From Agarophyton chilense (taxonomy: Eukaryota > Rhodophyta > Florideophyceae > Gracilariales > Gracilariaceae), in assembly GCA_030374765.1 (NCBI GenBank), contig JARGXX010000010.1, forward strand, positions 744,001 through 808,000: 64,000 bases of DNA, in the 5' to 3' direction. The notes under the pieces were generated by a model, which saw only the letters and a list, made by a program, of their open reading frames with translations, was not told the DNA's origin and did not search any database. The translations under genes were made by a program, and so were the position numbers. Numbering within the stretch: the first letter of the stretch is position 1; each line of letters opens with the position of its first letter. This document shows, piece after piece, positions 8,849 to 34,019 of the stretch.

Positions 8849-8849
8849 T

Positions 8850-10884: not shown

Positions 10885-11024
10885 CAGGGCTCAGGATCTC
10901 CCGCTGCGGGGCAGTATAGTGGCATTCTACGGCAATTCTCCGAAAAATCTGAATAAGCCCCGCGGCAAGAGCGAGCACTCTGGTACGACCACAGTACCTT
11001 AAGACAGGAAAGATATTTTCGAAT

Positions 11025-12706: not shown

Positions 12707-12962
12707 CGGACATCCACGAGGGCTCTTGATCTCAGCCTAGTGTTCTGGCAGCGCGACATATCGTCCGACGCGAGAATTCCGCCTACTTCGATCAATCTCG
12801 ATCATTTTGCATTGAACCAGGTACCTCAGGTACCCCAAGCGGGATCTCGTACGTCGTTCCCAACGAGGATAAACTCAATAAGGAATGTCTCTCTTGTGGC
12901 AGAAGCGAAAGTCCGAGCGGAGCAAGGCCCGGCGAAAGCAGAGTGCAGCGTCGCGTACATCG

Positions 12963-13085
12963 CGTAAGCTCCGCTATTCGTCGACGTCGACTTTGTATAA
13001 GGTCTCGATGTACGTGTATCTTTCGCCATTCGTCGACGTCGACTTTTTATAAGGTCTCGATGTACGTGTATCTTTCGCCATTCGT
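12963..13085. repeat. Tandem duplication of about 60 bp
   Basis: Two near-identical units each contain 'attcgtcgacgtcgac', then 'ataaggtctcgatgtacgtg' and 'tatctttcgcc'. They begin near 12975 and 13030. This is a simple two-copy tandem repeat that splits the antisense frame of element B. Confidence 0.75.
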
Positions 13086-13537
13086 GCGAGCCATCCAGGG
13101 ATCCAGATTCCAATCTCCAGTGAGACCGACCGTGCTAATGAAACGGTATAGACGCTGGTATATCAGCTTGGTAAACCGAATTCGAGCTGCGTCCATACTT
13201 TCATTGGTATACCACACAATCGCGATATCTGGAAAAGCACAGTGAGTAAGCCAATCTTGGCTGCGGATATCCGCATAAGGAATTCCATCTGGAATGTAAC
13301 CGCTGAAGACGTACCGTCTGAGCGACGTGTCATCGCGAAGAGAGACTTGGTCAAACCAGGGAGCCTGCGCGAAGAGGTCAGCATCGTCGAGATGGTCTCG
13401 TCCCACAAATTCCGCAGGATGTGGATAGCTGCGTTGAACCCGACGAGATGGCTGTAGAGCAACGCGTGCCCGTATAACCGGTCGGGACACCATTCATATG
13501 GCATCCGATATATCGGGGACCACGTCACTTCATTCAT
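13047..13537 (-). pseudogene. Antisense reading frame 3' of element B, part 2
   Basis: An ATG at 13537 opens a minus-strand frame that appears to shift near 13430 into a second frame that stays open to 13047. The two halves together look like one continuous globular protein with many aromatic and acidic residues. No family recognised. A tandem duplication of about 60 bp (12963-13084, repeated 'ttcgtcgacgtcgac') separates it from part 1. Function unknown; decayed. Confidence 0.3.
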
Positions 13538-13539
13538 GA

Positions 13540-14520
13540 GTAATATTAGTTTTTAGTATTTCAAACACCTTAGAAGGTATGTTATTTAAGTCTGTGCAGT
13601 AGTACCGTAGTGGACGGATGAACGTGCAAGGCTCGGGTTACACAGATGATACGTGTATGGACAAGGGTTGGGTTCCACTACTATAGTCTAGACGTGTAGT
13701 TCACTGTCTAGAATAGACTTAAGCGATGGCTTCACCGCCATCGCTACCACCAAGTAAATGGTAACCGAGTGCTTGGCTCTAGATAATGTCGCCTACGGGA
13801 GACTCCGTCTCTTAACGGGAGGGACCGCGACCGGTTTGGCTAATCTATCCCCTCGGGAAGCTCAGGCTTCACTGTACCATCGTTTTTGGTGTGTTTATTT
13901 CTTTTGTTGGTATTTATGTGTTTAGGTCAGTACACCGCCCCTCTATCGGGTTGTTTTAACCCGTGTTGGTTTCGCTTATCCAGTGCGGATACCCCTTTCA
14001 TAGGTCTGTACGCTTGGTCGTGCGTCCAATTTCGCCCTACAATTTCGCCCTACACTTTGTCGTTGATCGCCGAATATCCTTGTCCTTGGTCCCCCCTTTG
14101 GTTCTTCCCCTTTTCCTGGGTTCATCACCTTCGTGGGTATTGCCTGAACCACTGTGACATTACACCCACGCCTCTGTGGCACGAAGGCTCGTTCACTGAG
14201 TTATCCCTTTTCGCAAGAGCGGGACTCGGACACCTGAGAGGTATTTTCCCGTTTGGGATTTCTCTACACAAACGCCGGTTGCTTATAACGTCGATACCAA
14301 CTATGGAAACGACAGACTTACGGCTCAAATAGCTCAAACTATTCAAGTGATCCAAATTGCAACTGCTGGTGTCCGCAACGAAAGCCACTCCGAAAGTTGT
14401 TCATACTGGACTGTGAAGCACACCCGTCCCAAACCAAAATGAACCTCGCAATCCTCAGTCACTAACCGAGCCAGTCCATTTTCCCACAACCACCTCATCA
14501 CGTCTCCCTAGCTCGTCAGT
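13540..14520. other. Non-coding stretch between element B and the copia fragment
   Basis: No supported gene. One 148-codon plus-strand ORF (13886-14332) has no recognisable domain. The stretch probably holds the 3' end/LTR of element B and broken copia pol sequence, but no second LTR copy was matched. Confidence 0.25.
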
Positions 14521-14521
14521 C

Positions 14522-14857
14522 GTGCGTAACAATCTCCTGTCCATGCATTACATCGCTAAAAGGTACATGGTACTCTTTCGCCACAAAAAGGCTTTTATAA
14601 TACAGAACAAACGATTTTACTACTACATCGAAGGTCCGTCCTCATTCCTTATCCAGAACGATTACCAACAATCCCCCGACGATCTATGTCTTTTTGTTAA
14701 ATGGCACAAATCGGACCACCTCATCATCCTCTGTTTAAACAGCGATGAATTCCTGGTCGCATCAACAAAACAAATTCACATCGATGAACTATACACCAAA
14801 CTACAGACCAAGTATTCCACCAAACGACTTGTCCGCTCCATACTCCACCTTCGTCTG
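14522..14857 (+). pseudogene. Ty1/copia reverse transcriptase fragment, left of the inserted transposon
   Basis: The translation ends with a copia-type RT stretch: 'QQSPDDLCLFVK', then 'HLIILCLNSDEFLVAST' (the YVDD-like box is altered to NSDE) and 'LYTKLQTKYSTKRL'. The frame is cut exactly at 14857 by the terminal inverted repeat of the large DNA transposon. Beyond its right end (29514) the codons resume copia pol, so one copia element was split by the insertion. The 5' part of pol is not recognisable. Confidence 0.7.
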
Positions 14858-14874
14858 TGTTCTCGGAATGCTAG
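14858..14874 (+). repeat. Left terminal inverted repeat of the CACTA-type element
   Basis: 17-bp perfect inverted repeat with 29494-29510. It is followed by subterminal motifs: 'gctagataagtgtgctagat' at 14870-14889, 'gctagttttg' near 14890 and 'gcgctagttc' near 14941, matching motifs near the right end. Confidence 0.92.
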
Positions 14875-15088
14875 ATAAGTGTGCTAGATAGCTAGTTTTG
14901 TAAATAAAAAGCCAAAAAAAATCTAAGAATTTTGCAGATTGCGCTAGTTCGGCACCTGAAAAAAAAATTTTGGAAATAAGCACTCCATGCATCTTAGTGT
15001 TTTGACCACTTAATGCAGTTTAATCTTCATTTGCAGTTTACTGGTCACTTTTGACCGCTCTAGGTGGAGATCCATACCAAGCCAGTCG

Positions 15089-15758
15089 TCAGTACCTTCT
15101 ACTTCCGTACTGGCCCTTTTGCTTACTAGGCTCCAGCGTTCCACCGGGAGGGTATTTGATTTTGAAGAAGTCCACCACCGCATTCTCAACGTCGTCCACC
15201 TCCCCACTGTTCAAGTTCCTCACACCCGGCTGCCCCACCACACACACATTTTCACCCTTCTTCTCCACATCCTTACCAACCCTCCTCTTCTTCAGCCGAC
15301 TCTCTCCAACTCCTCCCCCTTTCCATTCCTCTCTCCCCTTCTTCATCCCAGCTGGCTCCCCGCGTCTCCCTGGCGTCACCGGCGACCCTTTCGCTCTCCC
15401 CCTCTCCTCTCCCACGTCCTTCAACACCTTCCGCGCACCCCAAATCTCCCCCACCCCTTCCATGTGCACTTCCAACACCTTCACACGCCTCTTCAGTTCC
15501 TCATTCGCCCTCCACAGCTTCCCCATCTCCAGCCCCATGGGGATCCGCTCGACATCGCCAACGCCCGCGAAAGCTATCGACAAGAGCCACCGCAAGCGCA
15601 AGTGCACTCACCTTAGTGCGGCCAGTAGTACTCGCAGCCTCCCATACAGCACCCCCCCTCGAAAATCCTCTCGCCCACCTCCGGCCTTTTATCTCCTTTT
15701 TTTGACCCGCTTTTCGCGCGCGCTCGCCCAATTTCAGTACCCTCGTACACCCTTGCAT
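15089..15758 (-). CDS. Two-exon coiled-coil protein of the transposon (unknown role)
   Basis: The minus strand has an ATG at 15758 opening 49 codons that end in a perfect splice donor, AAG|GTGAGT (intron starts at 15611). A matching acceptor GTCGAG| ends the intron at 15548, giving a 64-nt phase-0 intron and a 152-codon second exon ending at 15089, about 201 residues in all. Exon 2 begins with a probable coiled coil ('MGKLWRANEELKRRVKVLE') and continues highly basic, with a basic cluster 'RLKKRRVGKDVEKKG' that could be a nuclear signal. Being the gene nearest the left end it could be an accessory DNA-binding protein, as CACTA elements often encode a second protein; this is inference. Splicing is predicted, not shown. 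Confidence 0.5.
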
Positions 15759-16149
15759 CTACGCTCCGGATGCCCTTCACCCCACTCATTGCTCACTCAA
15801 ACACTCCCATCCATATTCCTACACCATTTATCATGTTCAGCGCTCCCTCACTACTCCCAATTTCATAGCCTTCTCATTTATAATAAATCACACTCATTCG
15901 TAACACAAACCGCCGATTACTCATAAGCCCTCTTTCCCGTTATGACTTCCATAACAACACACACTCCTACACTTTTAACACAATAAACACCATTCAATAT
16001 CATAAATCTAACCTCCTTCCCAAAAACCCCTAACACCCATTCCTCCATAACCATACTCCTTCTCTATTTAATCACATCTCCACACTCGCCACCCCCACCA
16101 CTTCTTCAATTCCAAGCACACTGCACTCCAAACACCTTTCGCAATCAAC

Positions 16150-16974
16150 ATGACCGACTCTCTCACTGCCATCCCTTGCACCTCCGACCCAGCCGTTATT
16201 GTCGGCAGAGGCCGAATCGGCACTTTGCTTCGCAACAACGGCACCCCACAAGATTCTTTTATCTCAACTCAAGAATTCATCTCCGCGCAATACATCCCCG
16301 ACGGCCCCATGTTCTTCTGCGGCAGAAATCATTCACTCGAAGACGTCATTCAATTCTGCACTTCCTCCCGCAGAGAGGATCTGGTCTTCCTTCGGAACGG
16401 AAACATTCTCCCTCTTCTTTCAACCTATGGGCTCCAAAACTGCACCAAAGCCGTTCTCTTCCTCGCCGTCCCCTCCCTTAACGCACCCCCCGAGGACGGT
16501 GTCACCCTCCTCAGTCCCCATTGTCTCACAACTGCCACCGGCAAATGGGCTCCCGCACTCGCCAATCGCCTTAGTACCGCAGGCCTCACTTGTCATGTCG
16601 TCGACCAGCCCTCCTTCTCTAAAGCTTACTACGAAAAACTCGTATGGATATCAGCTTTTAATCTCGTCGGCTCCTCTTATGGTTTTATCACAATGCACGA
16701 AGTTGCATTACAACACCGCACAGTCGTTTCAACCATAATGAAAGAGCTCCTAGCCATCGTCACATCCGAAACAGGAATCGCCTACAATACAACAGAAACA
16801 CTCCAAAAACTTCTGGCCCACGGAAAAACACTTACACAGTTCCCCACCTCGTTCTCAGACTTTTAGTTCCGGAACGTCTACTTCTACAACGTTTCTAACG
16901 CCCAAAAATCCATTGGAAACCGTGACCCCGCCCCTTTCCATACGAACTTATTGAACGTCCTCCTCAATGGGTAG
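16150..16974 (+). pseudogene. Ketopantoate-reductase-like NAD(P)-binding protein, one in-frame stop
   Basis: The ATG at 16150 starts a Rossmann fold with 'VIVGRGRIGTLL' (residues 17-28). Then come 'RREDLVFLRNGNILP' and a helical second domain with 'ATGKWAPALANRLSTAGL' and 'KLVWISAFNLVGSSYG'. This matches, as I recall it, a conserved plant/algal family of ketopantoate-reductase-like (ApbA/PanE-fold) proteins of uncertain substrate. A TAG at 16864-16866 ends the ORF at 238 residues, but the next 35 codons continue in frame with what looks like the family's C-terminus ('FRNVYFYNVS', 'GNRDPAPFHTNLL') up to a TAG at 16972. So the gene is nearly complete and broken by one nonsense codon, or read through. 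It is intronless, carried inside a transposon, and probably captured from a host. Confidence 0.65.
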
Positions 16975-17389
16975 TACTTCATTCATATACCCCTTCCAAT
17001 AAAAACAAGTCCTTTTTTCTAAAGCATATGTCCATCTCCTTCGCTGCCTCGATAAAGACTGCTATCCGCACGACACCACGTCAGAATATATGAAACGATA
17101 TTAAGAATTGCTTCGTACATCACAAATCATCACTACAACCACTCTTCATAAATCTACCAACTTTGCAATTAAGTCTGTACCCAATAACCGCTCCTACAGC
17201 CTATCAAAGGTTTTCATTCATAACAACTATTCATACTCCGCGACAGAGATACGGCAACAACCTAACAACTACTTTGATCACTACATATATATATCCACCG
17301 ATGACCACCCTACTTCATTGCGCTCAACATACTGTATCCAGTCCCTCACAAATACCTTTCTACACAACACTCTCCTCTCCTTCTCAAGC

Positions 17390-17731
17390 ATGCAGCGCTA
17401 CGAAGCACGTCTTTCCCTACCCCCTGGTTCTTCTGTCCAATGCTCAGCAGCTGTGGATATTCTTCCACAACGAACGGTTATCACCATCGACGAAGTCCTT
17501 CAAATCAAACTTCCAACCACCCAGAATGTGGTCGAAGTCAGAGGGTTCCAGAATCATATCACCAACGAGCTCATGGGCGAGATTCGTGACATTTGTACGA
17601 CCACCAGGAGGCTTCCCACTCGCAACTCCCTACAGCAGCAAGATACTCTGAAACAACTGTTCAAAGAGCGGTATCATATCGTTACCTATGTGCAGCGTAC
17701 AAGGAAGACTAGCAAACCGGAACGCCTTTAA
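17390..17731 (+). CDS. Small protein of the transposon, unknown
   Basis: An ORF is open from upstream, but the part before the ATG at 17390 is rich in Thr/Asn/Tyr and looks like untranslated sequence. From 17390 the 113 residues look like a folded domain ('MQRYEARLSLPPGSSVQC', 'RTVITIDEVLQIKL', 'VVEVRGFQNHITNELMG') followed by a basic tail. I do not recognise the family. The stop is followed 16 nt later by another long open stretch (17748-18575) lacking an ATG, so this may be the first exon(s) of one gene joined by a short intron. Confidence 0.35.
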   Translation: MQRYEARLSLPPGSSVQCSAAVDILPQRTVITIDEVLQIKLPTTQNVVEVRGFQNHITNELMGEIRDICTTTRRLPTRNSLQQQDTLKQLFKERYHIVTYVQRTRKTSKPERL

Positions 17732-17747
17732 TAAGATGTTCAGTTAG

Positions 17748-18575
17748 CAAACACTCTTCACATCGACCTTAACGTTCACAATCACACTAAATACACTCTT
17801 CGGAGTTATAGACCCAGCTCTGCAATATACGCTTCCATTCAGATTCAACTCTTTCCTTCGGTTCATTCTCATAACGCTATTGAGGTGTCCTATCCAAAGC
17901 CTGCTACACATTCTCATAATCGAAGGAGGCGTACAATGTATAAACGCGTTATACGGGTCTCTACAAACTACGCCGTTCAATCCAAACCAGCGATATACCT
18001 GGAAGAAACGAGCCTTTCTGGAATTCGGGATTCTACTCCTTACTCTACTCATCCCCCTCAACGCCATACTTTTCCTCGTTCACCGCTTCATTCCAGTCAG
18101 CGGTACCCTTTCATCAGACGTGAAGACAAATTGTATCGCCTTCTCCACAGGAGGGGCCGCAGTTGGCGCTTTGGCATATCTTCTCCAGCTTGTTTCTATA
18201 TCCTTCTTTCCAGAGTCTTATCTTAACACAAAGCTCACAATGAACCCGGAACCACGGAGAACCTCTTTTATGAACCTCGTGCTTGGCGCCCTCTCCCACT
18301 CTTTTCAACAGGCTTTATTCATATCCAGTCCGGCTGTAACCTTCCGACTACTCGGTATGAGGCTGTCGGCATGCACTTTCGCTGCACTCTCTTCAACCGC
18401 CTTCTCCACCTCTCCCATTGAGGGCCCTGGTGTTCCTATACTGCTTGGTAACACAGTGGATGTCGTAATCTTGATATCTTCGACAGTTGTCATTCACTAT
18501 GAGAAAGTGAAAGCAAGTGCTGCTCTCACGCGTTTCAATCCAGTTGTTCAGGAGTTTCTACTGAAAGAAGACTGA
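17748..18575 (+). CDS. Multi-pass membrane protein of the transposon, no start codon seen
   Basis: The frame is open from 17748 (after a TAG) to a TGA at 18573, 275 codons, with no ATG in the first half. It encodes several hydrophobic segments ('FGILLLTLLIPLNAILFLVH', 'GAAVGALAYLLQLVSISFF', 'VDVVILISSTVVIHY') separated by short polar loops. It therefore looks like a membrane protein with roughly five to six passes. The missing start, and the upstream ORF ending just before, suggest it is a 3' exon (a TAG/CAG acceptor lies at 17743-17747). Family not recognised; role in a transposon unknown. Confidence 0.4.
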   Translation, partial: QTLFTSTLTFTITLNTLFGVIDPALQYTLPFRFNSFLRFILITLLRCPIQSLLHILIIEGGVQCINALYGSLQTTPFNPNQRYTWKKRAFLEFGILLLTLLIPLNAILFLVHRFIPVSGTLSSDVKTNCIAFSTGGAAVGALAYLLQLVSISFFPESYLNTKLTMNPEPRRTSFMNLVLGALSHSFQQALFISSPAVTFRLLGMRLSACTFAALSSTAFSTSPIEGPGVPILLGNTVDVVILISSTVVIHYEKVKASAALTRFNPVVQEFLLKED

Positions 18576-18656
18576 TCACTATTACAAGAAAAGGGGACTA
18601 CTCCACATATTACCTCAAATTGTACTCTTTATTGTTCAATAGGTAACAGATACTAT

Positions 18657-18866
18657 CTAGTCGTCGTCGTCATCCATTATCATACCGCCGTCTTCATAGT
18701 CTCCATCTGTGTTAGCCGAGTTGAGACCCATCCCAGGTTCATCATCCTCTTCTTCATACTCCTCTTCCCCACTTTCAACAACTTCCATTTTATAATCTTC
18801 ATCCAACTCCTCAGAGGCCCTGGAGTCAGCACAGAGGAGACGCGTGTCATCATCGAGGTATCCCAT
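18657..18866 (-). CDS. Very acidic small protein or C-terminal exon, minus strand
   Basis: A minus-strand ATG at 18866 opens 69 residues ending at a TAG (18657), extremely rich in Asp and Glu with a 'MIMDDDDD' end. Acidic tails like this are common on histone-binding proteins. It faces away from the methyltransferase gene across the hairpin array, so the two could share a bidirectional promoter. It may be the last exon of a longer gene; no family is recognised. Confidence 0.3.
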   Translation of the reverse strand: MGYLDDDTRLLCADSRASEELDEDYKMEVVESGEEEYEEEDDEPGMGLNSANTDGDYEDGGMIMDDDDD

Positions 18867-19044
18867 GCGTATATACCTGCCGACACCATATCCTTCAGCA
18901 ACTCCGGCGGCTCCTCTGCTCCCTTGAAGGAGTACGGATAATTGGAGTTGATCCCCTCCTTAATTTCAGTCCTCCAGATGGCCACCAAGTCCTCTCACAA
19001 ATGGCCCGAATGGTGTCCCTACAACATGTTGGTGAATTGTCAAT

Positions 19045-19367
19045 TGTCGGCCGACAGGGGTGTGCTGCGACTTCATCGGTGGATGGATGAAGTCGCAGGG
19101 CACCCCTTTCGGCCGACAAATACGCCATAGCATCACGCATGATGCCTTTCTGAGATGTTGGTCGACTGTCGGCCGACAGAGGTGCGCTCCGACTTCATCG
19201 GGGGTCTCGATAGTCCCCGCGCACCTCTGTCGGCCAACAGAGTGCACCGTGTACACCTGAGCGTTCCAAAAATTACAAAATTATATGTATTATGTCGGCC
19301 GACAGAGGTGCGCGGGGACTTCATCGGGACCCCCGATGGAGTTGGAGCGCAGCTCTGACGGCCGACA
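19045..19367. repeat. Array of three large hairpins built on TGTCGGCCGACA
   Basis: The 12-bp perfect palindrome TGTCGGCCGACA occurs exactly at 19045, 19167 and 19293, with one-mismatch forms at 19107, 19228 and 19356. The six copies form three inverted pairs (starts 61-63 bp apart), repeated every 122-126 bp. The arms extend beyond the palindrome (for example 'CAGAGGTGCGC') and each unit contains 'gacttcatcgg'. The array fills the space between the divergent acidic ORF and the methyltransferase frame, so it may be a promoter/operator-like site or transposase/methyltransferase binding array. Confidence 0.9.
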
Positions 19368-19540
19368 GAATGCAACCAGGATAGCTGCAAAGTCGTTCCG
19401 CAACAACCGTTCTTCCGTGCGCGCTCCTCAATCGTACTCACAATCTTTCCGTACCCACCCGCACCCACCCGCACCCGCTGCTCTCTTTCACTCAGGCTCT
19501 CGTGACGACCGCCCGTGAGGTTGTTTGAACACGTACATAA

Positions 19541-21907
19541 ATGGCTCCAGAACCCACGAGAACTTCTTCATCGCCTGCGGCAGACACCTTCGAAATGCGT
19601 GAACTGTTTGGTACGGGGGATGAAGTTACCAGGGCGTGTCTGGATTTGCGTGATCGTTACGCATCAACGAGGCGGGAGGAAGATGAGCCGCGAAAAGTGG
19701 GGCACACTGCATTCATCGATTTCGCAATTGCCATTCGCCACATCCTACCGGAGACCGCGAAGTTTTTTTATACTCTCCTAGGTCCCGACCACACCATTTT
19801 CACAGAAGATGAGCTCCGAGTTGTAGGAATTAGGGGCTCGAACTGTCAGAATTATTTCTCGGCGAGGTTGCTGGATATAAGGAATGGGGACCCAAATAGG
19901 CGCGTGAGGGACTTTTGGAACGCGTACGAGGCGGTGGAGTTCAAGGGCATCCCGAAGAATGTCACTTTGACAGAGTTTTTCAAAGGTCTGGATACAACCC
20001 GAAAGAAGGCGAGAAAAAGCCGGGCTCCATTCGCGACCGACTTCCCGACAATGTTCCAGAGGTTGCTGTTCCTCATTTGTATTCAGTCGGTCTCTATGGA
20101 GAAGAGAAGAGTCTCCCGTAAGCGAAGAAAGCGGGACAGAACCTACGATACGCCATATTCGAAGGTGGCGATTTATGACAAACCAGTAGCTCAGCGTGTG
20201 GGCTTTGGTGTGCAGCTCGTCAATAACGCGTGGGACAGCTTCGCCCAGTATTTGGGATTCCCTGGCGCGGAATTCATGGTTTTTCCCTTTATCCATCTAC
20301 GATATTCTGATATGCAGTTCCAGGCAATCGGAAACAGAAGGGATGGGTTCTCTCACAAGGACATGGCCCAACGCCTCCTTCCTGGTAGAAACCGTACTTT
20401 ATTGGAGGAGGGTGTCGTCCCATAGGCGTGGAACCTGCTGGAGTACGTTGACACTCCACTTCGTATGTTGGCCAAAGAGTTTCTCGCTGACCTGCACAAA
20501 GTGGTGGTGAATGAGCAGCTTTACTCTATATCAGCTCCGGAAAGATGGGACGTTCTAAAACCGTTTACATACACTTTGCCTAGAGTGTTTGCGGAGAGAT
20601 TTGACTGCTTCTCGAACTCTCTTATCTCTACCATCTCGGAATACATATCGCCACTAAAGCTGCGAGGGAGTGTGGAGGTGGAAGTGGTGGCTGCGACAAA
20701 GGCGGAACCTACTATGGTTATGGAAGAAGACGAGATAGAAGTTGTACCCCCTGAGAAAGATTCGGAGGCTCCGGCGGTGGAGGGTGGAGAGGGAGTGGAG
20801 GGTGGGACCGGGAATGAGGAAGAGAACATGGGTGTTGGTCAGCATTCTTCCACAGCTGGACCAAGGTCGGTCGAATCTGAGTCGGTGGATATTCTGCCGC
20901 CTCACGACCTTACCTCTTTGGATGATATAATGTCTCTCCAAAAGTGCGAGTTGGAGATGAATAAGCACTGTCGAATCTACAATTGTACTTTCGAGAACCT
21001 GGTGGAGATTGACGAGACATTGCGCAGCAATGGGGTCTCTCCGATAGGGAAAGTGCAGTGGGTTCTCACGGACCCGCCGTATAATATACGTGCGAAGAAG
21101 AACAGGAAAAACAGCTGGTACGACGTTCTTAACCGGCAAGACATGGTGAAGACGGCGAAGCTCATCTCTAAACTTCTGCGTCCGGGAGGGCATTTCGTTA
21201 TATTCTGCGCGATTGAGCAGGTGAACGAATGGAAAGAAGTGTTGGGCCGAATTGGTGCAAAGGATGAGAATGAACAGAAGAGCAGGTCGTTTGTCGTGGA
21301 CAAGGTCCAGCTGCACTTCATTCGCTCTCAAGGCAATCCGATGCGTAATCCCGGACGTAGTTCGTGCTCCCTGTTTCCCGGAACAGAGTACGCCATTCAT
21401 GGAGTTCGCAGCGGGTTGTCCTACGCCGAACAACATGGCATGGTGAACTATGAGAACTTCAGCTATGTACCATCGCGACATCCGGGTTACCATAGCGTGA
21501 TTGACCAAGTGCCTCCCATGTCGAATGGTGAAACACTTCTATGGAGAAGGAAGAATGCCAAAGGAGCAGTTACGTATCAGAAAGTGCGGGCGGAACAGAA
21601 GTCACGCGCTTTGCTGAAGGAGCTCATCAGCAGGTTTTCTCAGCCGGGAGACATAGTGGTGGACCTCTTCGCCGGAACATTTTCAACGGCCATGGCATGC
21701 ATGGAACTGGAAAAGCACCGTCAGTTTCTAGGGTGTGAGCCAGATCCGCAGTGCTTTGCTCTTTCGAAGCACGCCGCTACAGTGAAATTTGGGTCATGCA
21801 TGCGGAACAACGAGACGGACATTCATATAACGCAAGATGTTCGGAACGCTGTGACTCGAGTGACATGCTTGTTTCCGGACGTCGTCATAAAGCGTTCGAA
21901 GTCCTGA
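19541..21907 (+). pseudogene. Beta-class DNA methyltransferase with long N-terminal region, one in-frame TAG
   Basis: The ATG at 19541 starts a 788-codon frame broken only by TAG at 20423-20425 (codon 295); the second ORF (ATG 20465) is in the same frame. The C-terminal half is a SAM-dependent DNA methyltransferase: motif IV 'LTDPPYN' (Asp at residue 511), 'LLRPGGHFVIFC', a target-recognition stretch, then motif I 'VVDLFAGTFSTAMA' (residue 708) and 'RQFLGCEPD'. The order IV-TRD-I is beta class; DPPY favours adenine-N6 (or cytosine-N4), not cytosine-C5. An acidic linker lies near residues 390-440. The N-terminal 290 residues are unrecognised. It ends with TGA (21905), 30 bp before the SET-domain ORF in the same frame. 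Either nonsense-inactivated or expressed in pieces from 20465, which alone contains all catalytic motifs. Confidence 0.75.
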
Positions 21908-21937
21908 AAAACACCTACCGGATTTCCCGAGCATCAG

Positions 21938-22672
21938 ATGTTTCCACCCCATATCGTGGATTTTCTCTCCTCCATGTGGCAGGATAAGAATATATCGGAG
22001 ATTAGGCGACGGCAGGCGCTGTATGAGTGGCCAAGAAGTTTTCAAGGAAAGATGTCACTGTTGGATTGGAATGCTATTCTGGCAGTGGAGGCGACAGTAT
22101 GTGGTTGTCGGATTGCAAAGTCGACTATAAGGCACCCAAATGGTGGAGTTGGTGTGTACACAACACGCCGGGTGATACAAGGTGAGTCTGTTTGTTACTT
22201 TTACGGGACTTTGGTGTACCATAATCTTTCAAAGCGGAAGGAAGTTCATAAGGCATATGGAGGGGGGCTATTGAAAGCGAGTGCTGATCGTTTTCGGCAG
22301 TACGCCATGGAGATAAGCGTCCGAGGGGAAGTGTTTCACAAGCTACCAGGAAGAATTAGTGGGGTGTCTCTTATTCCGGTGTGGATTGTCCCTGCTCCAT
22401 TTTGCTTGGGGGGAACAATTAACGACCCCAAGTATGTGGAAGGGGATAGGGACAGGGATGCAGTTGAAGACGGGTTAATGAGACGCCGAACTGCAAATGT
22501 TCGGGTCATCAGAACTCCGGGGACGGGGCGGACCCCATTTCAGTTGAGAGACTATAGATTGCTTTCTGTGCAAGCAATTCGAGATATAGAAATGGGAGAG
22601 GAGCTGTTCGCGGATTATGGGACAGAGTATATCTGGAGTATGAATAACACGCCAGTCATAGTAATCGATTAA
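21938..22672 (+). CDS. SET-domain protein (putative protein lysine methyltransferase)
   Basis: The ATG at 21938 gives 244 residues. SET hallmarks: an N-flank 'GGVGVYTTRRVIQGESVCYFYG' (SAM-binding strand), an insert, 'GGTINDPKY...TANVRVIR' at the place of the usual N-H-S/C...N motif, then 'DYRLLSVQAIRDIEMGEELFADYG' with the final catalytic Tyr. The N-H-x-C motif is divergent, as in SETD8-like and many protist SET proteins. The frame is identical to the methyltransferase upstream, separated only by a TGA and ten codons, so the two may once have been one fused protein. Likely target is a histone or other nuclear protein. Such a pair on a transposon could set local chromatin state; this is inference. 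Confidence 0.75.
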   Translation: MFPPHIVDFLSSMWQDKNISEIRRRQALYEWPRSFQGKMSLLDWNAILAVEATVCGCRIAKSTIRHPNGGVGVYTTRRVIQGESVCYFYGTLVYHNLSKRKEVHKAYGGGLLKASADRFRQYAMEISVRGEVFHKLPGRISGVSLIPVWIVPAPFCLGGTINDPKYVEGDRDRDAVEDGLMRRRTANVRVIRTPGTGRTPFQLRDYRLLSVQAIRDIEMGEELFADYGTEYIWSMNNTPVIVID

Positions 22673-22996
22673 AAGTGCATCGCTTTTGTTACTGTACTTC
22701 ATTGTAGTGTACCAGATATTGTGGGCTTTTACTATGTTTGTCGCTACATATAACGTCAAAGCGTGAGGTAGTACATATGCTAAAGGAAAGTCATGTACAC
22801 CGAAGGAGAATACTTTCCCAATATCTGGTGCGTTCGAGCGCATATTTAAAATATCTGAAAAGTTTGGGGGTTTTCTGAGAACACGAAAAGGGTGGAGGTA
22901 TATTTTTGGAAGCAGAATGTTTCGAAGCTTCTCTCCCATCCATCGCATTGCAACGCGTGGAAGACCATACCACGATCGCTCTCTCTCTCTTCAAAC

Positions 22997-24049
22997 ATGG
23001 CTCCGAGGCGCAAATCGAGAAGCGAGAACACTAGCGGGCGCGGCACAAAATCACGGCGGCATGGAGGGGATGCGGAGGGCGGAAGGGACAAGGGGCGTAG
23101 GCTCCAGGGCGCGAGTGGAGATAAGGGAGGCGTGCGCCTGAGAGGTAGATCAAGGCAAGATGGTGGGGAAGGAGAGGCGAGTGGGGGCAAAGGAAAGGCT
23201 GTTCGCGCAAAGGAGACGGTGACGGAGGAGAGTGCGGAGCAAATCACGTCGCGTACGGAGCAAATCACGTCGCCTACGGGAGAGATGGTGCGGAGCGGCG
23301 ATGGAAAACGGGATGGCGTGCGAAGCAACCGCACGCGGGTACCTAGAAGTGGATTGCGGGGGAGGGCGAGCAGAGCTCCAGGGAGGACAAGGAGAGGGGA
23401 TGCATCCGAGCGGACTCTAAGTGCTGTACTCACGTCTTCAGCTGATGTGGAGCCGGTAAATCCATGCTCTGCACCTGAAGGAGGTGAAGAGATTCCGAAT
23501 GAGAGGACGAAGGGGCGTAAGGAGGGAGAGAGAATGATCGGAGAACGTGGATCCCGCCGCAGAGGCGTTGAAGAAGCAGGGGCATCGTTTACGGGTATGA
23601 GGGAAGAGGACGGTGATGATGAGACACAGAAAGGGAGAATAGAGAGTAGCCGTGGTGGGGAGGGTAGAATAGGTGGACCCATTAGTGGTCTAATCGCGGG
23701 CGCAAGAGTCGTTCGAGAGAGAACAGAAGGAGAGAGTGTTGGTGTTACCGCGGGGGAACAGGCGGAAAGATGGGAGGGGGCGAACCTGGATTACGTGGAA
23801 GAAAGGAGAGAGCGTGCAAGGGAAGGAATGGGGAGTGTTCGAGTTACAGGAAGAAGAGCGATAGACGAAAGGGAAAGCAGAGAAGTGCATGTGAGTGAGG
23901 GGGGAGAAGGGGGTTTGCTGGAGGGAGAACACGTGGTTCAGGGGAGGAAGGCGATGGAAGAGCAGCAGTTCTTTCTCATCAGGGAGAAGATGTCGAGCGT
24001 TTGCCACCGAGGAGAGGGGTGGGTTTGGGAGTTGAAGGGTTTGAGTTGA
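22997..24049 (+). CDS. Arg/Gly/Glu-rich basic protein of the transposon
   Basis: An ATG in good context (tcaaacATGG) at 22997 starts 350 residues, 'MAPRRKSRSENTSGRG...', strongly rich in Arg, Gly, Glu and Lys with low hydrophobicity and thus probably disordered. RGR-type repeats suggest nucleic-acid binding. A short internal duplication ('EQITSRTEQITSPT') is present. The end overlaps another open frame (from 23899) that runs into the next ORF (24076), so the two may be one gene joined by a short intron or frameshift near 23990-24070. Family unknown. Confidence 0.4.
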   Translation: MAPRRKSRSENTSGRGTKSRRHGGDAEGGRDKGRRLQGASGDKGGVRLRGRSRQDGGEGEASGGKGKAVRAKETVTEESAEQITSRTEQITSPTGEMVRSGDGKRDGVRSNRTRVPRSGLRGRASRAPGRTRRGDASERTLSAVLTSSADVEPVNPCSAPEGGEEIPNERTKGRKEGERMIGERGSRRRGVEEAGASFTGMREEDGDDETQKGRIESSRGGEGRIGGPISGLIAGARVVRERTEGESVGVTAGEQAERWEGANLDYVEERRERAREGMGSVRVTGRRAIDERESREVHVSEGGEGGLLEGEHVVQGRKAMEEQQFFLIREKMSSVCHRGEGWVWELKGLS

Positions 24050-24075
24050 ACGCAAGGCGAAGGACGCCGGAAGGT

Positions 24076-25650
24076 ATGCGAGTAAGGAGAAACATTTTAT
24101 TCAGAAGGAATAATGACAACGGGGAGAATGCGAATTTAAATATCGTGGAGAACGCCGTCCGTGTAGTTGAAGATGAAGCAAATGATGATGACATAGGTTT
24201 GTTGCCGCGGTCGATGCTAATTGAGAAGATGACTGTGTTGAAGGGACAAATGGGACGTATGAAGGAAGACAGCTACAGTGTGATGGTAAGTTTGAAAATG
24301 ACCCAAACGGAGCTGGATCGGGCGAGGGAGGAAATGAAGCAGCAGAATGTGCTGATTGAGAGTTTGAGGGAGGCGTTGAAAGGTAGAATCGCTGGGGAAG
24401 GGAGGGGGGAGGGAGGCGTGAAGCGGCGACGAAAGTATGACATTGGAGTGCAGGAATGCTTTTATGGATTTGCACGTCGTGTGTATGATAGGATTCTTCA
24501 TTATGCAAAACTGGAGGCATCGGAACTTTGCTTCGACACCGAGAATGTGGGTCGAAGCTGGAAGAATAGAAGTGAGGCGGTTGGGGAGAGTAGGGAGGAA
24601 AGTATGTTTGTGGTGGGAGAGAAGGAAATGGTTCCGAGATGTCCAATTGAGGTTGCATATGAGATGAGACCGTATACGCCGTCGACAGAGGGCGGGAGCC
24701 ATTTGTTGTTGAAGCACGTGATAGAGACTGAGTTAATGGGAGATAAATGGGAGTCGATAACGGAAGCGGGGAGGAGAGAGGAGTGCGTGGAAAATGTAAG
24801 TGCGGATAGGTGCTTGAGACAGAGGATGAAGCAGACATTGAGCGATGTGGTTGGGGTGCGGAAGCGAGCAGCGCGTGATAAGCTGTTTTCCATGCTTGGA
24901 TATGATTTGATCGCAAAACGAGCTAAGGTGACTGAAGGGACGGAGCTTTGGGCGGAGTTGAAGAAGCAGATTGAGGAGGCGCAGGAGAAGTTGATGGGGT
25001 TGGGGGAAGATGGGAGAGGTAAGCTGTGTGCGTGGAGAACGAGGGCGATTGAAGATATTACTTATTCTGGATCGAAGGTGTCTGAGAACTTGGAGGACTT
25101 TGGTGAGGCAGATATGTATTTTCGAAATCAGGTGTCGTTGAAAGTGTTGGAGGAGTTTATGGGCTACGCGGTAGAGAGTCACAGATATGGAGAAAGGCAG
25201 TATGTGGATGGGACGGTGATGCATCTTGCGCGACTTGATGCATGGATTGGATGTGTGGTGACCACGATGGATAGAGACGTTGGGCGGGGAGGCCAAAGGC
25301 AACTTTTGTTCTCGACGCTGTTTGGTAGGTTTATGCCACTGGCTGTTGAGGACATATTGAGGGTTGCCTGGAACATGGTGAAGGATGAGTATGCTGAGGA
25401 GTTTGAGAATGATGGATTCTGTGGAGGGAATCGTAGAGATGTGAGTGGGAATAAGGAGAGAATCGCGACGGTTGGGCTATGGATACCGTCGAGAGAGAAA
25501 ATCTATCTGGCGATAAGGGAGGAGTTTTTCATGGAGAATCTCACGAGAAGACTTGGAGCGGTGTTAGATTGCTATATAGCGTCATGTGGACCAGAAGAAC
25601 CACGGTTCAAGCGCTTAGCGTTGGGGAGTAGGCAAGGAGTGGGAGAGTGA
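24076..25650 (+). CDS. Coiled-coil protein of the transposon (unknown, 524 residues)
   Basis: The first ATG in the frame is at 24076; the frame itself is open from 23899. Residues about 45-105 form a strong coiled coil ('LIEKMTVLKGQMGRMKED', 'ELDRAREEMKQQNVLIESL'). A basic cluster 'GGVKRRRKYD' follows, then a mostly helical globular region of about 400 residues. No known family was recognised. It lies tail to tail with the transposase (stops 25648 and 25738), so it is a good candidate for the second, DNA-binding protein that many CACTA elements need for excision; that role is inferred only. The ORF is intact. Confidence 0.55.
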   Translation: MRVRRNILFRRNNDNGENANLNIVENAVRVVEDEANDDDIGLLPRSMLIEKMTVLKGQMGRMKEDSYSVMVSLKMTQTELDRAREEMKQQNVLIESLREALKGRIAGEGRGEGGVKRRRKYDIGVQECFYGFARRVYDRILHYAKLEASELCFDTENVGRSWKNRSEAVGESREESMFVVGEKEMVPRCPIEVAYEMRPYTPSTEGGSHLLLKHVIETELMGDKWESITEAGRREECVENVSADRCLRQRMKQTLSDVVGVRKRAARDKLFSMLGYDLIAKRAKVTEGTELWAELKKQIEEAQEKLMGLGEDGRGKLCAWRTRAIEDITYSGSKVSENLEDFGEADMYFRNQVSLKVLEEFMGYAVESHRYGERQYVDGTVMHLARLDAWIGCVVTTMDRDVGRGGQRQLLFSTLFGRFMPLAVEDILRVAWNMVKDEYAEEFENDGFCGGNRRDVSGNKERIATVGLWIPSREKIYLAIREEFFMENLTRRLGAVLDCYIASCGPEEPRFKRLALGSRQGVGE

Positions 25651-25737
25651 TAAGGTACGGGGGGATAAGGGGGTAAGGAGGTGGAGCAAGATGGGGGTCG
25701 GCTATGGAAGAAAAGCAGCGGTGACTATTTTATTGGA

Positions 25738-28700
25738 TCATGTGCCTTGGGAGGTATTATTATGGGTGCCACCCAGTGGTGGTGTTGTGCCACCAGTGGT
25801 GGTGTTGGAGAAGTAGGGCTTGGCAGTTGGGTCTCGGTAGAATCTGTTGAGGTAAAATCGATGGAAGCGCCAGTGCAATCGAGGGGTGAAGGGGGGTGCG
25901 GGGTAGTTTTGGCGAAGAACATGAACGGGGCCGAGAATGGAAGAGGATGGTACGAGGCCGAACCAGGGGGAGACGTTGTCGGAGTTGGAATTGTTTGAGA
26001 TAGGAAGGGGGTGGGCGGTGTGGTTTTGTTCGTCGTCTGTTGCCCATCGGAGGCAGATGCAATTGAGAGAGACATCGAATTGATCCTGGGGTGGAACGAG
26101 TTCGAGGAAATGAACGAAGGCGAACTCGTTATGACTGGAAGGGGAAGAAGGGGTGGTGAAGCGAAGAAGAGAGTTGAGCTTGCAGACCCAGGCGGTGGGA
26201 GTGGGGTTGGAGAAGCTGGAACCGGCAACGAGGATGTGGGAGAACTTTGGGGTTTTAGAGGGACCGAAGGAGGGAGCAGCGAAGATACGTTGAATGAGTG
26301 GGAGAGGGGGATCTTTGACGGCGAGCTCGTTTCGAGTGGCGATGTAGTCGTCTAGGGTTGGGGTGAAGCCGCCGACGACGTATGCGGAATTGACGAATGT
26401 GAGACGGGTTTGGCGGAGAGTGGGGGAGTCCTGGTTGAGAGCTAGTGTTTCGAGTGTGAGTGTGACGAAGGAGGGGAGTGCGAGGGTTCCAATCTGTGAG
26501 ATGATGGCGATAGTGTCTGGGGAGAAGAGGTCCTGAAGGGAAGAGATTGTTGAGTGGGGGTTTGCTCGAAGGAATTTGTGAGCGGTGATGAGATCGGAAA
26601 AGGAGGTGTGCTTGCCATCACGGACGAAACCTGGTTTGCGGGCTTGGAAGGGAAGAGGAGGGGCATGGGAGAATGAGGTGACGGAAGGATCAGCGGAGAG
26701 AGAAATCCAATTGTTGACGGCATCCGAGCGTTCGATGGCACGGATGGTTTCGTTGTGCGCGGTGGGTCTGCGCTTGGAGGTTCGGGAGTAATGTGCTTTG
26801 AAGAGGGTATGGGCTTGTTCGAAGATGCCTGCATCGTTAAAGTGGAGACCCCCAAAGCGTCGAATGTCGTCTACGATGTGATCGAGGAGGTGGAATTTGA
26901 GGGTGCCAAGGTTGGAGGTATGGTATGGACCGAGAACATCGACAGCTCTGTGCTTGAAGGAATGGATTTGGGAGGCGAGTTTGGCAAGACGAGAAATGGT
27001 CCATTCGGGGACGGAGTTGTAGCACATGGAGGTGAGGAGGAGGTCTGTGTACTTGGAGTAGACGGTTGTGATGGGAGCGGAATTGGCTTCGTCACAGCAG
27101 CGGTCGAAGAAGACGCCGATGAAGGGGAAGACCATGTTGAGGGCGCGGTATTCTTTTGCTTCTAGCATGCCGCGGACGCCGTCAGTTGTGAAGAAGCCGT
27201 TGAGGGACTGCCCGCTTTCGGAAGTAGAGAAGTCGATGTGGAGGCCGGTAGCTGGGGAATGATTTTCGATGGCGGTGAGGATGAAGTTGGAGTACTTGAG
27301 GATGGAGGTGCGGACGGAGTGGAAGGAACGGCGGGAGTTTGTGGAGCTGATGGTGGTGAAGAGGTGTTCTGATCTGAGACGTTCGATGGCGGCGAGCTTG
27401 ATGAGTTTGGAAACGCCGAGGTGGAAGTTGTGGAGGGGTTCGAAGGGGAAGATGTTGTATGGGGTGAGGAGGGGGGTGATGTTGAAAAGGGGGTAAGACT
27501 CGAAGAGGGAGGGGTATTGTGCGAGGGAGAGGGAGCGGAGTGCTTGAAGAGCTTGTTCCTTGAAGTTGCGCGAGACTCTTGGCTTGCGGGCGAGGAGAGC
27601 TGCTTCGGAGTCCATGAGGAGGGAGAAGTGTTTGTTGCGGGCTGCAAGGGTGAGGGGAAGAGATCGAAGGGGATGGGCGTGAGAGTGTTGGTGGAGTTGT
27701 GAGCGAGGGACAGAGCATCTGTGGCAGGGGTGCTGGGGGCGGGTGCCGTAGGAGATGGCGAGAATATCCTTTGCCTCGGGAATTTCTGCGCAGTAGCTGG
27801 CGATGATGGGGTGGCATTGACGAAGAACGCCGTCTGCGTCGCGGAAGGGGAATCCGGGGAGGGCGGAAGAGAAGAGAGGTTGAAGGAGGGAGGAGATGGT
27901 CTGCTGTATGGGTTCTATTTTTGTTTGGCGGGGGATGGAGGAGGAATGAGTGATGATATCTGCATCTGGAGAAGGAGTGATTGGGGTGAAGGAGGTGGGA
28001 AGATAGCCGAGGAGTGTGAGATTTTCGGAGATGCATTTGCGGCGAAAGGAGTCGGAGAAGTTGAGAAGGGTGATGTGGAGGGGGTAGGAGGTGATGGAAG
28101 AAGATTTGAGAGAGGTAGAGGACTTGTCGGAGTAGATTTGGACGAGGCCGATGAAGGAGTCGATACCGGTGGAGTGAGGGAGATGCCAGACGATGTTATC
28201 TTTTGTGGACTGCATGATGGCGGTCTTGAGTGTGGGGACGACTTTTGAGCCGAGGGTGGCTGCCATGGGGTGTGCGAAGGCGGGGGAGCCGGAGGCGGAT
28301 GTTTGGGAGATGGGGTGAAAAACGGTGTTCTTGAAGTGTGCGAGGGCGAGCTGTTGTTTGAGGACATGGATTGCGTCTTTCTGGAAGAGGGTTGCGGAGA
28401 AGCGTTTGTGGGGATCGAAGATGGTGGAGGGGGCGAAACCAATGAACCTGATTCTCTGGTGGGAGAGGTCTGCCTGGAGCTCGAGGCATTGCTTTGGGGA
28501 GGAGACTGAGTTCCGGAATGTTGATTCGGAGAAGTGGGGATCATTAAGGAGAGTGATGAGTGCGTCAGCCTTTCGTTGTCCAAGCTTGGAGGCGATGGAG
28601 GAGATGTAGAGGACCATTTTCTCCAGGTGGGGGTTGTCGAGGGGGCGAGTGGAAGGAGGGAGGGGGGAGAGAGCGAGAGAGGAGGGGGAACCGAGAGGAG

Positions 28701-29001
28701 CAGTGGCGACGTGGATGGCGTCCTGGGTGTGGAGGGAGAGAGAGAGCTGGTCTTGGAGGTAGGAGTCATGGTGTGCGAGAGGGACGTTGTGGGAAGGGCG
28801 ATGTGAGGGAGGAGGATGAGGGGGGAGTTGTGAGGTGGACTTGTGGCGTTTTGTGCGGGGGGGGAAGTTGGGTTCATTTCCGCCAGGGGAGAGGAAGCGC
28901 TTGTTGGCGGAGAGGCGATGAGGGCACCTTCTCTGGTGCCGCTGGAGGGCGGGGATTTCTCGGGCGAAGAAGGAGCAACCGTTGAAGCAGCAGGAAGGCA
29001 T
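25738..29001 (-). CDS. CACTA/Plavaka-type transposase
   Basis: The ATG at 29001 gives 1,087 residues, uninterrupted. An N-terminal zinc finger C-x3-C-x12-H-x3-C (residues 5-26) is followed by a disordered Pro/Ser region. The catalytic domain shows 'VQIYSDKSSTS' (Asp 292), 'LLNFSDSFRRKCISENLTLLGYLP', 'GVLRQCHPIIASYCAEIPEAK' and 'HPCHRCSV'; at the place of the usual A-D-x-P-E this copy has A-E-I-P-E (Glu 406). Then come 'FPFEPLHNFHLGVSKLIK' (His 524) and a C-terminal 'FHLLDHIVDDIRRFGG' with 'EQAHTLFKAHY'. These match, as I know them, the Plavaka branch of CACTA transposases. The enzyme would cut the element at its terminal repeats. It lies at the right end pointing inward. Confidence 0.85.
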   Translation of the reverse strand: MPSCCFNGCSFFAREIPALQRHQRRCPHRLSANKRFLSPGGNEPNFPPRTKRHKSTSQLPPHPPPSHRPSHNVPLAHHDSYLQDQLSLSLHTQDAIHVATAPLGSPSSLALSPLPPSTRPLDNPHLEKMVLYISSIASKLGQRKADALITLLNDPHFSESTFRNSVSSPKQCLELQADLSHQRIRFIGFAPSTIFDPHKRFSATLFQKDAIHVLKQQLALAHFKNTVFHPISQTSASGSPAFAHPMAATLGSKVVPTLKTAIMQSTKDNIVWHLPHSTGIDSFIGLVQIYSDKSSTSLKSSSITSYPLHITLLNFSDSFRRKCISENLTLLGYLPTSFTPITPSPDADIITHSSSIPRQTKIEPIQQTISSLLQPLFSSALPGFPFRDADGVLRQCHPIIASYCAEIPEAKDILAISYGTRPQHPCHRCSVPRSQLHQHSHAHPLRSLPLTLAARNKHFSLLMDSEAALLARKPRVSRNFKEQALQALRSLSLAQYPSLFESYPLFNITPLLTPYNIFPFEPLHNFHLGVSKLIKLAAIERLRSEHLFTTISSTNSRRSFHSVRTSILKYSNFILTAIENHSPATGLHIDFSTSESGQSLNGFFTTDGVRGMLEAKEYRALNMVFPFIGVFFDRCCDEANSAPITTVYSKYTDLLLTSMCYNSVPEWTISRLAKLASQIHSFKHRAVDVLGPYHTSNLGTLKFHLLDHIVDDIRRFGGLHFNDAGIFEQAHTLFKAHYSRTSKRRPTAHNETIRAIERSDAVNNWISLSADPSVTSFSHAPPLPFQARKPGFVRDGKHTSFSDLITAHKFLRANPHSTISSLQDLFSPDTIAIISQIGTLALPSFVTLTLETLALNQDSPTLRQTRLTFVNSAYVVGGFTPTLDDYIATRNELAVKDPPLPLIQRIFAAPSFGPSKTPKFSHILVAGSSFSNPTPTAWVCKLNSLLRFTTPSSPSSHNEFAFVHFLELVPPQDQFDVSLNCICLRWATDDEQNHTAHPLPISNNSNSDNVSPWFGLVPSSSILGPVHVLRQNYPAPPFTPRLHWRFHRFYLNRFYRDPTAKPYFSNTTTGGTTPPLGGTHNNTSQGT

Positions 29002-29493
29002 GGTGGGTGGAGGAGAAGTGGTGGGAAAGAAGTTGGTAGGGGGCGTAGACGGAGAGAGAGTATGGCGCACACAGGGCACTTGACAGGGGAGGGCGGTGGA
29101 GAATAATATAGAATGCAAGGCACGTGAGGTCTGCCAGGTCGGGCTGCGATTCTATTGCGATTGATATGGATGGTACTAAATGTTCAATTTCTATTTTGAG
29201 GTCCATTTTGGGACCGGTTGTTTGTAGTAATCTGTCAATCTAGAGCGCACAAAGATTGAATCTTCTCCTGCACCACTTCTCTACTTTTACCTTTAGACTG
29301 CGGCGACAGAAAGATTCACGCTAGTTTTACATCCATCAAAACTAGAAAAACTGCAGATATGTGCTAGTTTTCCTTCCCATACAAACTAGCACTAATGAAC
29401 GAATGAAAATATTTTCGGAAATTAACACCTCCAAATTTGGATAAATTCACGGGTTTTTCAGTCATTTCAATTCGTCCTTTTTTGACCACTGAA

Positions 29494-29510
29494 CTAGCAT
29501 TCCGAGAACA
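29494..29510 (-). repeat. Right terminal inverted repeat of the CACTA-type element
   Basis: Reverse complement of 14858-14874. Subterminal motifs on the inner side (29319-29395) include 'cgctagttttac', 'aaaactag', 'gtgctagttttcc' and 'aaactagcac', i.e. repeated CTAGTTTT in both directions. The CTG target duplication follows at 29511-29513. Confidence 0.92.
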
Positions 29511-29513
29511 CTG

Positions 29514-30324
29514 ACGTTAGCTGGGAAATACGTTACAAGTCCGAAGGATTACTTGATAGCCAACCATCATACATCAAGAGGCCATCAGTCTCATCAATCT
29601 CGAAAACTGCAACGCACGGGCCAAGCCGCACTCGCCCCCACCCCCTCCTCAAACAATCGCTTCACGCGCCATGTGAAGAGAATGAGAACATCCCAGAATG
29701 CAACTACCTTTCTCGGCACCTAGTTGACATATTTAGATGCATAGCAAACTGTACAAGGCCAGACATTGCGTCCTCGTTGGCACAATTGGCGCGCGCACTA
29801 AACTGCACAACCATACGCCATCTTCGATTGGCAAAAAGACTCATACTGTACCTAAAAGGTACGAACGACTCCGAAATTTTCTATCCCTATGGCTCACGGC
29901 AGAAAGGTTACTAAACACAGTCACATACTCTGATGCAGACTATGCGTCAGACCAAAAAACACAAAAATCTGTAACTGGCCTTTTAGTAACGATCCTTAAT
30001 TCACACATAGCATGGTCATCAGCACAGAAATCTTTAATAGCACTGCCAACTGGAGAATCCAAAGAAATCGCTGCAACGGCCGCAGTCCAAACCACACAAT
30101 TCGTGAGGCGTTCACTACAATTCCTAAACATAGAGCCAGACCTTCTGTCAATCTGCTTCACCGACAACGAAGCCACTATATGCATAGAAGAAAACATAGT
30201 AAGCTCCAAACGCAGAAAACTTATCGATGCCAGACAACATTACCTTCGTGACCACCTCAACCGCAAAACAATATCTTTTGCGCACATACCTTCTTTTGAG
30301 AATATCGCTGATATGCTTACTTAG
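29514..30324 (+). pseudogene. Ty1/copia RT-RNase H fragment, right of the inserted transposon
   Basis: Copia pol continues here. At about 29660-29915, in one frame, the RT tail reads 'ECNYLSRHLV...CTRPDIASSLAQLARALN' and 'LILYLKGTNDSEIFYP'. After a frameshift near 29915 the RNase H domain is open to 30324 with 'VTYSDADYASDQKTQKSVTG' (first catalytic Asp), 'SAQKSLIALPTGESKEIAA' (Glu), 'CFTDNEATICIEEN' and 'IPSFENIADMLT'. The left part of the same gene is at 14522-14857. It has at least two frameshifts, so it was already decayed, or decayed after the insertion. Confidence 0.8.
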
Positions 30325-33946: not shown

Positions 33947-34019
33947 GAGGTAAATCGACAAAGACAGATTCCAAAAGCCCTGCCTAAATCGGGAACTGGC
34001 TCTATAAATCTGGAACAAG

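Follow-up and report, generated by a model that had tools for sequence, protein, structure and literature searches.

Introduction

Transposons of several superfamilies are already recorded with a gene for one chromatin or DNA modifier. In the accessible text of Kojima (2025; PMC12730594), Plavaka, KDZ and other DNA transposons of fungi bear TET/JBP genes whose dioxygenase is proposed to resist silencing, and HarbingerS and MuDR transposons of Phytophthora bear a SET gene. The same text gives the termini of Plavaka elements as TGT..ACA (PlavakaA) or CATCA..TGATG (PlavakaB), and their target duplications as 2 bp (2 or 3 bp in PlavakaB). Plavaka giant repeats of Amoebidium carry tyrosine recombinases, according to the part of PMC11244446 available, and the available part of PMC8885841 describes N4CMT of bdelloid rotifers, a host-owned methyltransferase with a chromodomain, N4C activity and a motif other than DPPY. 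Red algae are not named in the accessible portion of a survey of eukaryotic 6mA (PMC12695648), and the accessible portion of PMC10538959 holds little about them; likewise, the available text of two Gracilaria genome papers mentions neither Plavaka nor methyltransferase (PMC10388701, PMC12502185).

Here we describe a mobile element lying in a window of 64,000 nucleotides, part of contig C10 of the Agarophyton chilense genome assembly (80 Mb, 135 contigs), and compare it with these systems.

Element Boundaries and Classification

The features of the window copy are as follows, in window coordinates:

14852..29516, no strand: whole element, a degraded copy assigned to the Plavaka superfamily; ends and 2-bp duplication established from 15 copies
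14852..14874, plus strand: left terminal inverted repeat (TIR) CGTCTGTGTTCTCGGAATGCTAG, 22/23 identical to the right end; target site duplication TT at 14850-14851
16150..16866, plus strand: small ORF of 238 aa (226 and 274 aa in the two full copies), with a Pfam match below cut-off only
18660..18994, minus strand: two remnants, located by tblastn, that cover residues 1178-1228 and 87-148 of a 1,228-aa gene product; the remainder is deleted in this copy
19045..19367, no strand: remnant of an array, with six boxes resembling TGTCGGCCGACA, against 13 per copy in the two full copies (at most 2 mismatches)
19541..22672, plus strand: methyltransferase-SET (MTase-SET) gene, a single 1,043-aa ORF in intact copies; stop codons at 20423 (TAG) and 21905 (TGA) interrupt it in the window copy
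21053..21766, plus strand: N6_N4_Mtase domain, residues 505-742, motif DPPYN
22145..22621, plus strand: SET domain, residues 869-1027; PF00856 at 8.2e-5 in an intact copy and 1.1e-5 in the window fragment
22997..25650, plus strand: third accessory ORF; one of the full copies has 884 aa, and a frame change splits the window version
25738..29001, minus strand: intact transposase of 1,087 aa, Pfam Plavaka PF18759; ORF checked
29494..29516, minus strand: right TIR; target site duplication TT at 29517-29518

The initial annotation had proposed a CACTA/Plavaka-type transposon with an intact 1,087-residue transposase, 17-bp inverted ends and a CTG duplication. The transposase frame was confirmed over its whole length, and it matches the Pfam Plavaka family at 3.2e-19 (69.8 bits, cut-off 26.3), which upholds the Plavaka part of that proposal. 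Both flanks were read for 13 element copies and two compact derivatives, and in all 15 CTG stands on either side of the TGT...ACA repeat; being invariant, CTG is therefore not a site-specific duplication and belongs to the terminus, which rules it out as the target duplication. The 2 bp outside CGTCTG...CTGACG, in contrast, vary between sites and match in 12 of 15 cases (10 of the 13 copies and both derivatives), reading TT, TA, TT, CA, TA, TG, AG, TT, AT, TA, TA and CT. At 1/16 per copy, the chance of 12 such agreements among 15 is about 1.4e-12; the three non-matching pairs of flanks are TG/TT (C1), CA/CG (C2) and TA/CG (C71b). This variable duplication places the ends of the element at 14852 and 29516. 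The inverted ends thus stand while their extent is revised, with 22 of 23 bp identical in the window copy: the termini read CGTC[T/A]GTGTTCTCGGAATGCTAG, the outermost bases are CGTCTGTG..CACTGACG, and TGT..ACA starts 6 bp inside. Ends of the form CGTC..GACG with a 2-bp duplication do not fit the CACTA/EnSpm pattern of CAC..GTG with 3 bp, and the CACTA label was dropped.

The 2-bp duplication agrees with that of the Plavaka elements in the accessible text of PMC12730594, whereas the termini fit neither PlavakaA nor PlavakaB as given there and perhaps represent a third Plavaka terminal type. Judged by its transposase and not by its termini, the element is classed as a cut-and-paste DNA transposon of the Plavaka superfamily.

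Copies in the Genome

Two complete copies, C10b (18,798 bp) and C92 (18,589 bp, both measured between the TGT..ACA points), put the full form at about 18.7 kb. The window copy is collinear with C10b minus about 4 kb, including nearly all of the 1,228-aa gene, and is degraded. The 884-aa product of the third accessory ORF gave nothing above cut-off in a Pfam search.

Genome-wide, the best 40 of 107 candidates were scored for the left end, where other copies show 95-97% identity, and the best 40 of 136 for the right end; 17 left-right pairs in the matches listed span 6.7 to 18.8 kb. Among the same matches, the methyltransferase lies within 14 kb, on the correct side and strand, at 25 of 40 left ends and 27 of 40 right ends, in agreement with the earlier suggestion that DNA and chromatin modifiers are repeated cargo. 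The methyltransferase protein itself has at least 91 matches in the genome (89 of 171 candidates scored): at least 68 belong to the transposon family and, once merged, represent at least 61 copies, whole or partial, and at least 23 form a second family at 42-43% identity. The initial annotation had also considered that the genes might have host orthologues at fixed loci, and none of these at least 91 matches looks like a single-copy host gene, all falling into the two repeated families. Nor do other copies consistently lack the methyltransferase and SET domains, although two compact derivatives of 4.5 and 4.3 kb do: these keep the ends, the array (17 and 13 boxes, respectively) and a 725-aa transposase frame, and carry no cargo genes, yet have been amplified. 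Three more intact MTase-SET copies share at least 99.9% identity with that of L010 across the ORF, and the spread is therefore recent.

The Methyltransferase-SET Protein

A DNA methyltransferase gene followed by a SET gene had been read from the window copy. Both domains are borne out there (N6_N4_Mtase at 2.9e-18, SET at 1.1e-5); their separation into two genes is ruled out, since in natural intact copies the methyltransferase, the SET domain and the preceding ORF form one continuous frame of 1,043 aa, consisting of an N-terminal region, a beta-class N6/N4 DNA methyltransferase of bacterial type and a SET domain. The stops in the window copy fall at codons 295 and 789. Thirty copies with the whole ORF, the best 30 matches, were fetched, and 12 of them contain no stop or frame change, one of the 12 having a 21-bp in-frame deletion.

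The methyltransferase part shows the PF01555 match, the DPPY motif ahead of the AdoMet motif and the fold of a beta-class DNA aminomethyltransferase, and its nearest relatives of solved structure are N6-adenine methyltransferases of the CcrM/MboII type. The active site of SET domains comprises a tyrosine and an NHxC-type motif. This tyrosine is present in 16 of 21 homologues, lost in four and not covered in one, and the NHxC position reads ND..Y in most of the 21 rows. Alignment recovers the fusion in 19 homologues (612-1,095 aa, 24-49% identity), nearly all of which retain DPPY. No homologue was confirmed in IMG/VR, and prokaryote genomes yielded eight loci with distant methyltransferases only (seven at 22-27%, one short stretch at 49%).

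Across the 30 fetched copies dN/dS is about 0.7 (singletons: 156 synonymous, 381 nonsynonymous), which indicates near-neutral drift after insertion, as expected for a transposon, and does not speak for function in this genome. A lower value of 0.43 for the methyltransferase part of the 12 intact copies rests on 25 changes only.

The ParB-Like Protein and the Palindrome Array

In copy L039 the 1,228-aa gene is intact (3990-7676) and divergent from the MTase-SET gene. The N-terminal part of its predicted structure conforms to the ParB_N fold of DNA-clamp proteins, while profile comparison alone gives a weak ParB similarity of E 0.0013 and 18% probability. Dioxygenases of the 2-oxoglutarate/Fe(II) type carry the signature HxD...H...R in a double-stranded beta-helix. 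Judged by its residues, the C-terminal part of the protein is probably such an enzyme; this part of the structure model has low confidence and no supporting Pfam or PDB sequence match, and Pfam Tet_JBP matches neither the protein nor its eight homologues. These eight were found with residues 745-1160 as query, whereas the whole-length query found none. One dioxygenase-type homologue (P0025) and one MTase-SET homologue (P0005) each occur on four contigs, the longest being 20,528 bp, and these matching contig counts and lengths suggest that the two lie on the same DNA.

The region separating the MTase-SET gene from the divergent 1,228-aa gene contains six near-perfect palindromes of 74-75 bp, flanked by boxes resembling TGTCGGCCGACA. 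As single-stranded DNA, each palindrome has a calculated folding energy of -34 to -44 kcal/mol (z -9 to -14). Copy C10b contains 12 boxes at no more than 1 mismatch against 0.03 expected, and upstream of the MTase-SET gene at least four boxes occur in 27 of 30 copies (at most 2 mismatches) and at least one in all 30. A 21-mer of the array occurs 267 times genome-wide, its reversed control not once. Of the 35 clusters formed by the first 100 listed places of this 21-mer, 16 lie no more than 4 kb from a methyltransferase copy and 27 no more than 13 kb from a Plavaka match (naive expectation 4%).

A Subtelomeric Sister Family

Contig C10 opens with a repeated unit of roughly 12 kb (6.46 kb seen, 99.9% identity). 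It includes an MTase-SET ORF (PF01555 2.1e-16, PF00856 1.3e-5) and a 1,796-aa ORF for a RecQ-like helicase (PF00270 6.9e-13, PF00271 7.7e-11; PDB RecQ 1e-20). Fungi possess telomere-linked helicases, to which this subtelomeric RecQ-like unit is similar. Among the matches listed for the second methyltransferase family, 21 of 23 face away from the nearer contig end (p about 3e-5). Telomere repeats of the AAACCCCTAAAA type were seen at two of the 11 contig starts read. One of these 21 matches sits almost mid-contig. In the protein tree the transposon protein (P0001) pairs with P0004 and the subtelomeric protein with P0005, each at 100/100; the two lineages split before their database relatives and are therefore both old, as is any capture between them.

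Host Context

The initial annotation had looked to fungal transposons for precedent. A profile search of the contigs gave 13 matches to phycobilisome linker genes, which are spread over several large contigs and a plastid-like contig and indicate a red alga and not a fungal setting; the plastid-like contig has ApcE-like frames 185,684 bp apart. A beta-tubulin gene of this genome, which reads without introns, points to a red alga as well. Searches of the genome for Zn_clus and for MT-A70 gave no match, the controls in both searches being silent as well, and no C5 methyltransferase (PF00145) was matched in a search where 10 of 14 controls, all prokaryote, were detected. The accessible text of PMC9861306 cites a DNMT3-like gene from a unicellular red alga, besides cytosine methylation in Gracilaria dura and Gracilariopsis, which calls for caution before the host is called methylation-free.

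Proposed Function

We favour, with a probability of roughly 0.45, the view that the Plavaka-superfamily transposon carries a self-contained chromatin-marking module with which it would mark itself, most plausibly for protection from silencing. The transposase would mobilise the element, and the MTase-SET protein would write N6-methyladenine (or N4-methylcytosine) on the DNA of the element and methylate lysines of its histones. The ParB-like part might bind or load at the palindrome array in a parS-like manner and so bring the oxidase to the element, where the dioxygenase could oxidise or remove a base mark at the array. The balance between writer and dioxygenase would then determine how strongly the shared promoter region and the transposase are expressed, so that the element might avoid silencing or over-transposing, as might, in trans, the deletion derivatives that keep the array. 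Such a division into cis and trans components would explain why cargo-free derivatives retain the array. The sequence is compatible with either sign of the mark, protection or self-limitation, and protection is our preferred inference.

With the opposite sign, the same anatomy could serve a self-limiting control, an unlikely alternative that nevertheless deserves weight. The MTase-SET protein would repress its own element through 6mA and histone methylation on array and promoter, the ParB-dioxygenase protein would act as anti-repressor, and the cargo would keep copy number down instead of helping the element to escape silencing by the host. The position of the array between two divergent genes suits such a switch, as does the abundance of the methyltransferase, of which there are at least 61 copies, whole or partial and in many cases decayed, whereas the spread of cargo-free derivatives argues against it.

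A wider reading joins the two repeated families and seems doubtful in its entirety: a complete sequence-addressed epigenetic system, in which a ParB-guided DNA oxidase and a fused DNA-plus-histone methyltransferase work with a parS-like array, might set the chromatin of transposons and subtelomeres. In this host, where the search for a C5 DNA methyltransferase gave no match, the MTase-SET family of the transposon and the chromosome ends may even be the main DNA-methylation writer.

It is improbable that the MTase-SET protein works chiefly at chromosome ends and reached the transposon by capture from the subtelomeric family, or that capture went the other way. The orientation of 21 of the 23 listed second-family matches away from the nearer contig end and the tandem 12-kb unit with its RecQ-like helicase are consistent with a role at chromosome ends, but the two lineages separated earlier than their database relatives (100/100), so that any capture is old, whichever way it went.

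Distinctly improbable, too, is passive cargo, in which a large element would have picked up genes without a role for it that are now decaying. Retention of the ORF in only 12 of 30 fetched copies, a dN/dS of about 0.7 and the compact derivatives without cargo all fit this account; against it, a fusion alignable in 19 homologues at 24-49% identity, with DPPY nearly always kept, has been preserved over long times, as is not expected of passive cargo, and it recurs in the second repeated family of the same genome and probably once more beside a dioxygenase-type gene elsewhere. That methylation ties transposition to DNA replication via hemimethylated sites, as Dam methylation does for bacterial Tn10, is the least probable account: the nearest solved relatives of the methyltransferase are of the CcrM/MboII type, some members of which are cell-cycle linked, but the fused SET domain and the dioxygenase-type protein would be left unexplained.

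Comparison with Known Systems

The favoured chromatin-marking module has its closest counterpart in the TET/JBP transposons, as described in the accessible text of PMC12730594: both are DNA transposons, some of the known ones have a Plavaka transposase, and a base-modifying dioxygenase, probable in our element, is carried. The dioxygenase-type protein of our element differs in having no Pfam TET/JBP match and a ParB-like fold, and the MTase-SET fusion, the red algal host and the ends set the element further apart. A gene with a SET domain, a putative histone methyltransferase in our case, is common to our element and to HarbingerS and MuDR of Phytophthora, which belong to other transposase superfamilies and for which that text mentions no fused DNA methyltransferase (PMC12730594). 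An MTase-SET fusion is likewise not described in the available part of the account of the Amoebidium giant repeats (PMC11244446). Unlike the rotifer N4CMT, a host gene as presented in the accessible text of PMC8885841, the methyltransferase here has DPPY, shares its protein with a SET domain and resides on a mobile element. Compared with bacterial ParB-parS partition systems, the ParB-like part is fused to a dioxygenase-type domain, and its binding to the array is predicted.

A literature text search, outside which most subscription journals and preprints lie, turned up no MTase-SET fusion combined with a ParB-like, dioxygenase-type partner, a palindrome array and a subtelomeric sister. Transposons with a single modifier (TET or SET) are already known, as is a rotifer that made a bacterial methyltransferase into an epigenetic writer, and what distinguishes the present element is the combination: in recently spread copies, a writer, a probable oxidase and a ParB-like fold are accompanied by a candidate cis site, and a single polypeptide unites DNA and histone methyltransferase domains. 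Should the element function as proposed, its module would amount to a portable, sequence-addressed chromatin system; it also permits a direct test of whether transposons import epigenetic marks into hosts without the usual ones.

Other genes in the window and elsewhere in the genome

Two retroelement stretches and two apparently host genes were identified in the window:
7979-8845, second, separate reverse transcriptase stretch (retroelement)
32051-34264, minus strand, prenylcysteine lyase-like gene, apparently host (match 5.9e-11)
45540-47711, minus strand, CLPTM1 family gene, apparently host (match 4.5e-115)
49100-52384, plus strand, retroelement genes for aspartyl protease, reverse transcriptase, RNase H and integrase

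Elsewhere, the beta-tubulin gene at locus L043 is readable without introns. On the plastid-like contig C39, ApcE-like frames lie 185,684 bp from each other, as would be seen if the sequence ran more than one full turn around a circular molecule.

DNA methyltransferases and the MTase-SET protein

The C5 DNA methyltransferase family gave no match across the whole genome in a search that detected 10 of 14 prokaryote controls, and MT-A70 likewise gave none across the whole genome, with the controls in that search equally silent. Residues 1-460 of the transposon's MTase-SET protein, its N-terminal region, have no Pfam match; they are helical and mostly well folded according to a structure prediction made on a homologue, and may represent a DNA-targeting domain.

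A tandem unit of approximately 12 kb in the subtelomeric region of contig C10 (positions 1-18500; L045, L077 and L046) contains an MTase-SET gene and, beside it, a 1,796-aa ORF that includes a RecQ-like helicase. Among the matches listed for the subtelomeric MTase-SET family, 21 of 23 rows are oriented away from the nearer contig end.

Compact transposon derivatives

Two compact derivatives, L094 (contig C3) and L095 (contig C16), are 4.3-4.5 kb in length and lack the cargo; both retain the transposon ends, 13-17 boxes of the palindrome array and a 725-aa transposase frame. An open frame of 725 aa occurs in five of the 123 Plavaka rows among the genome matches listed.
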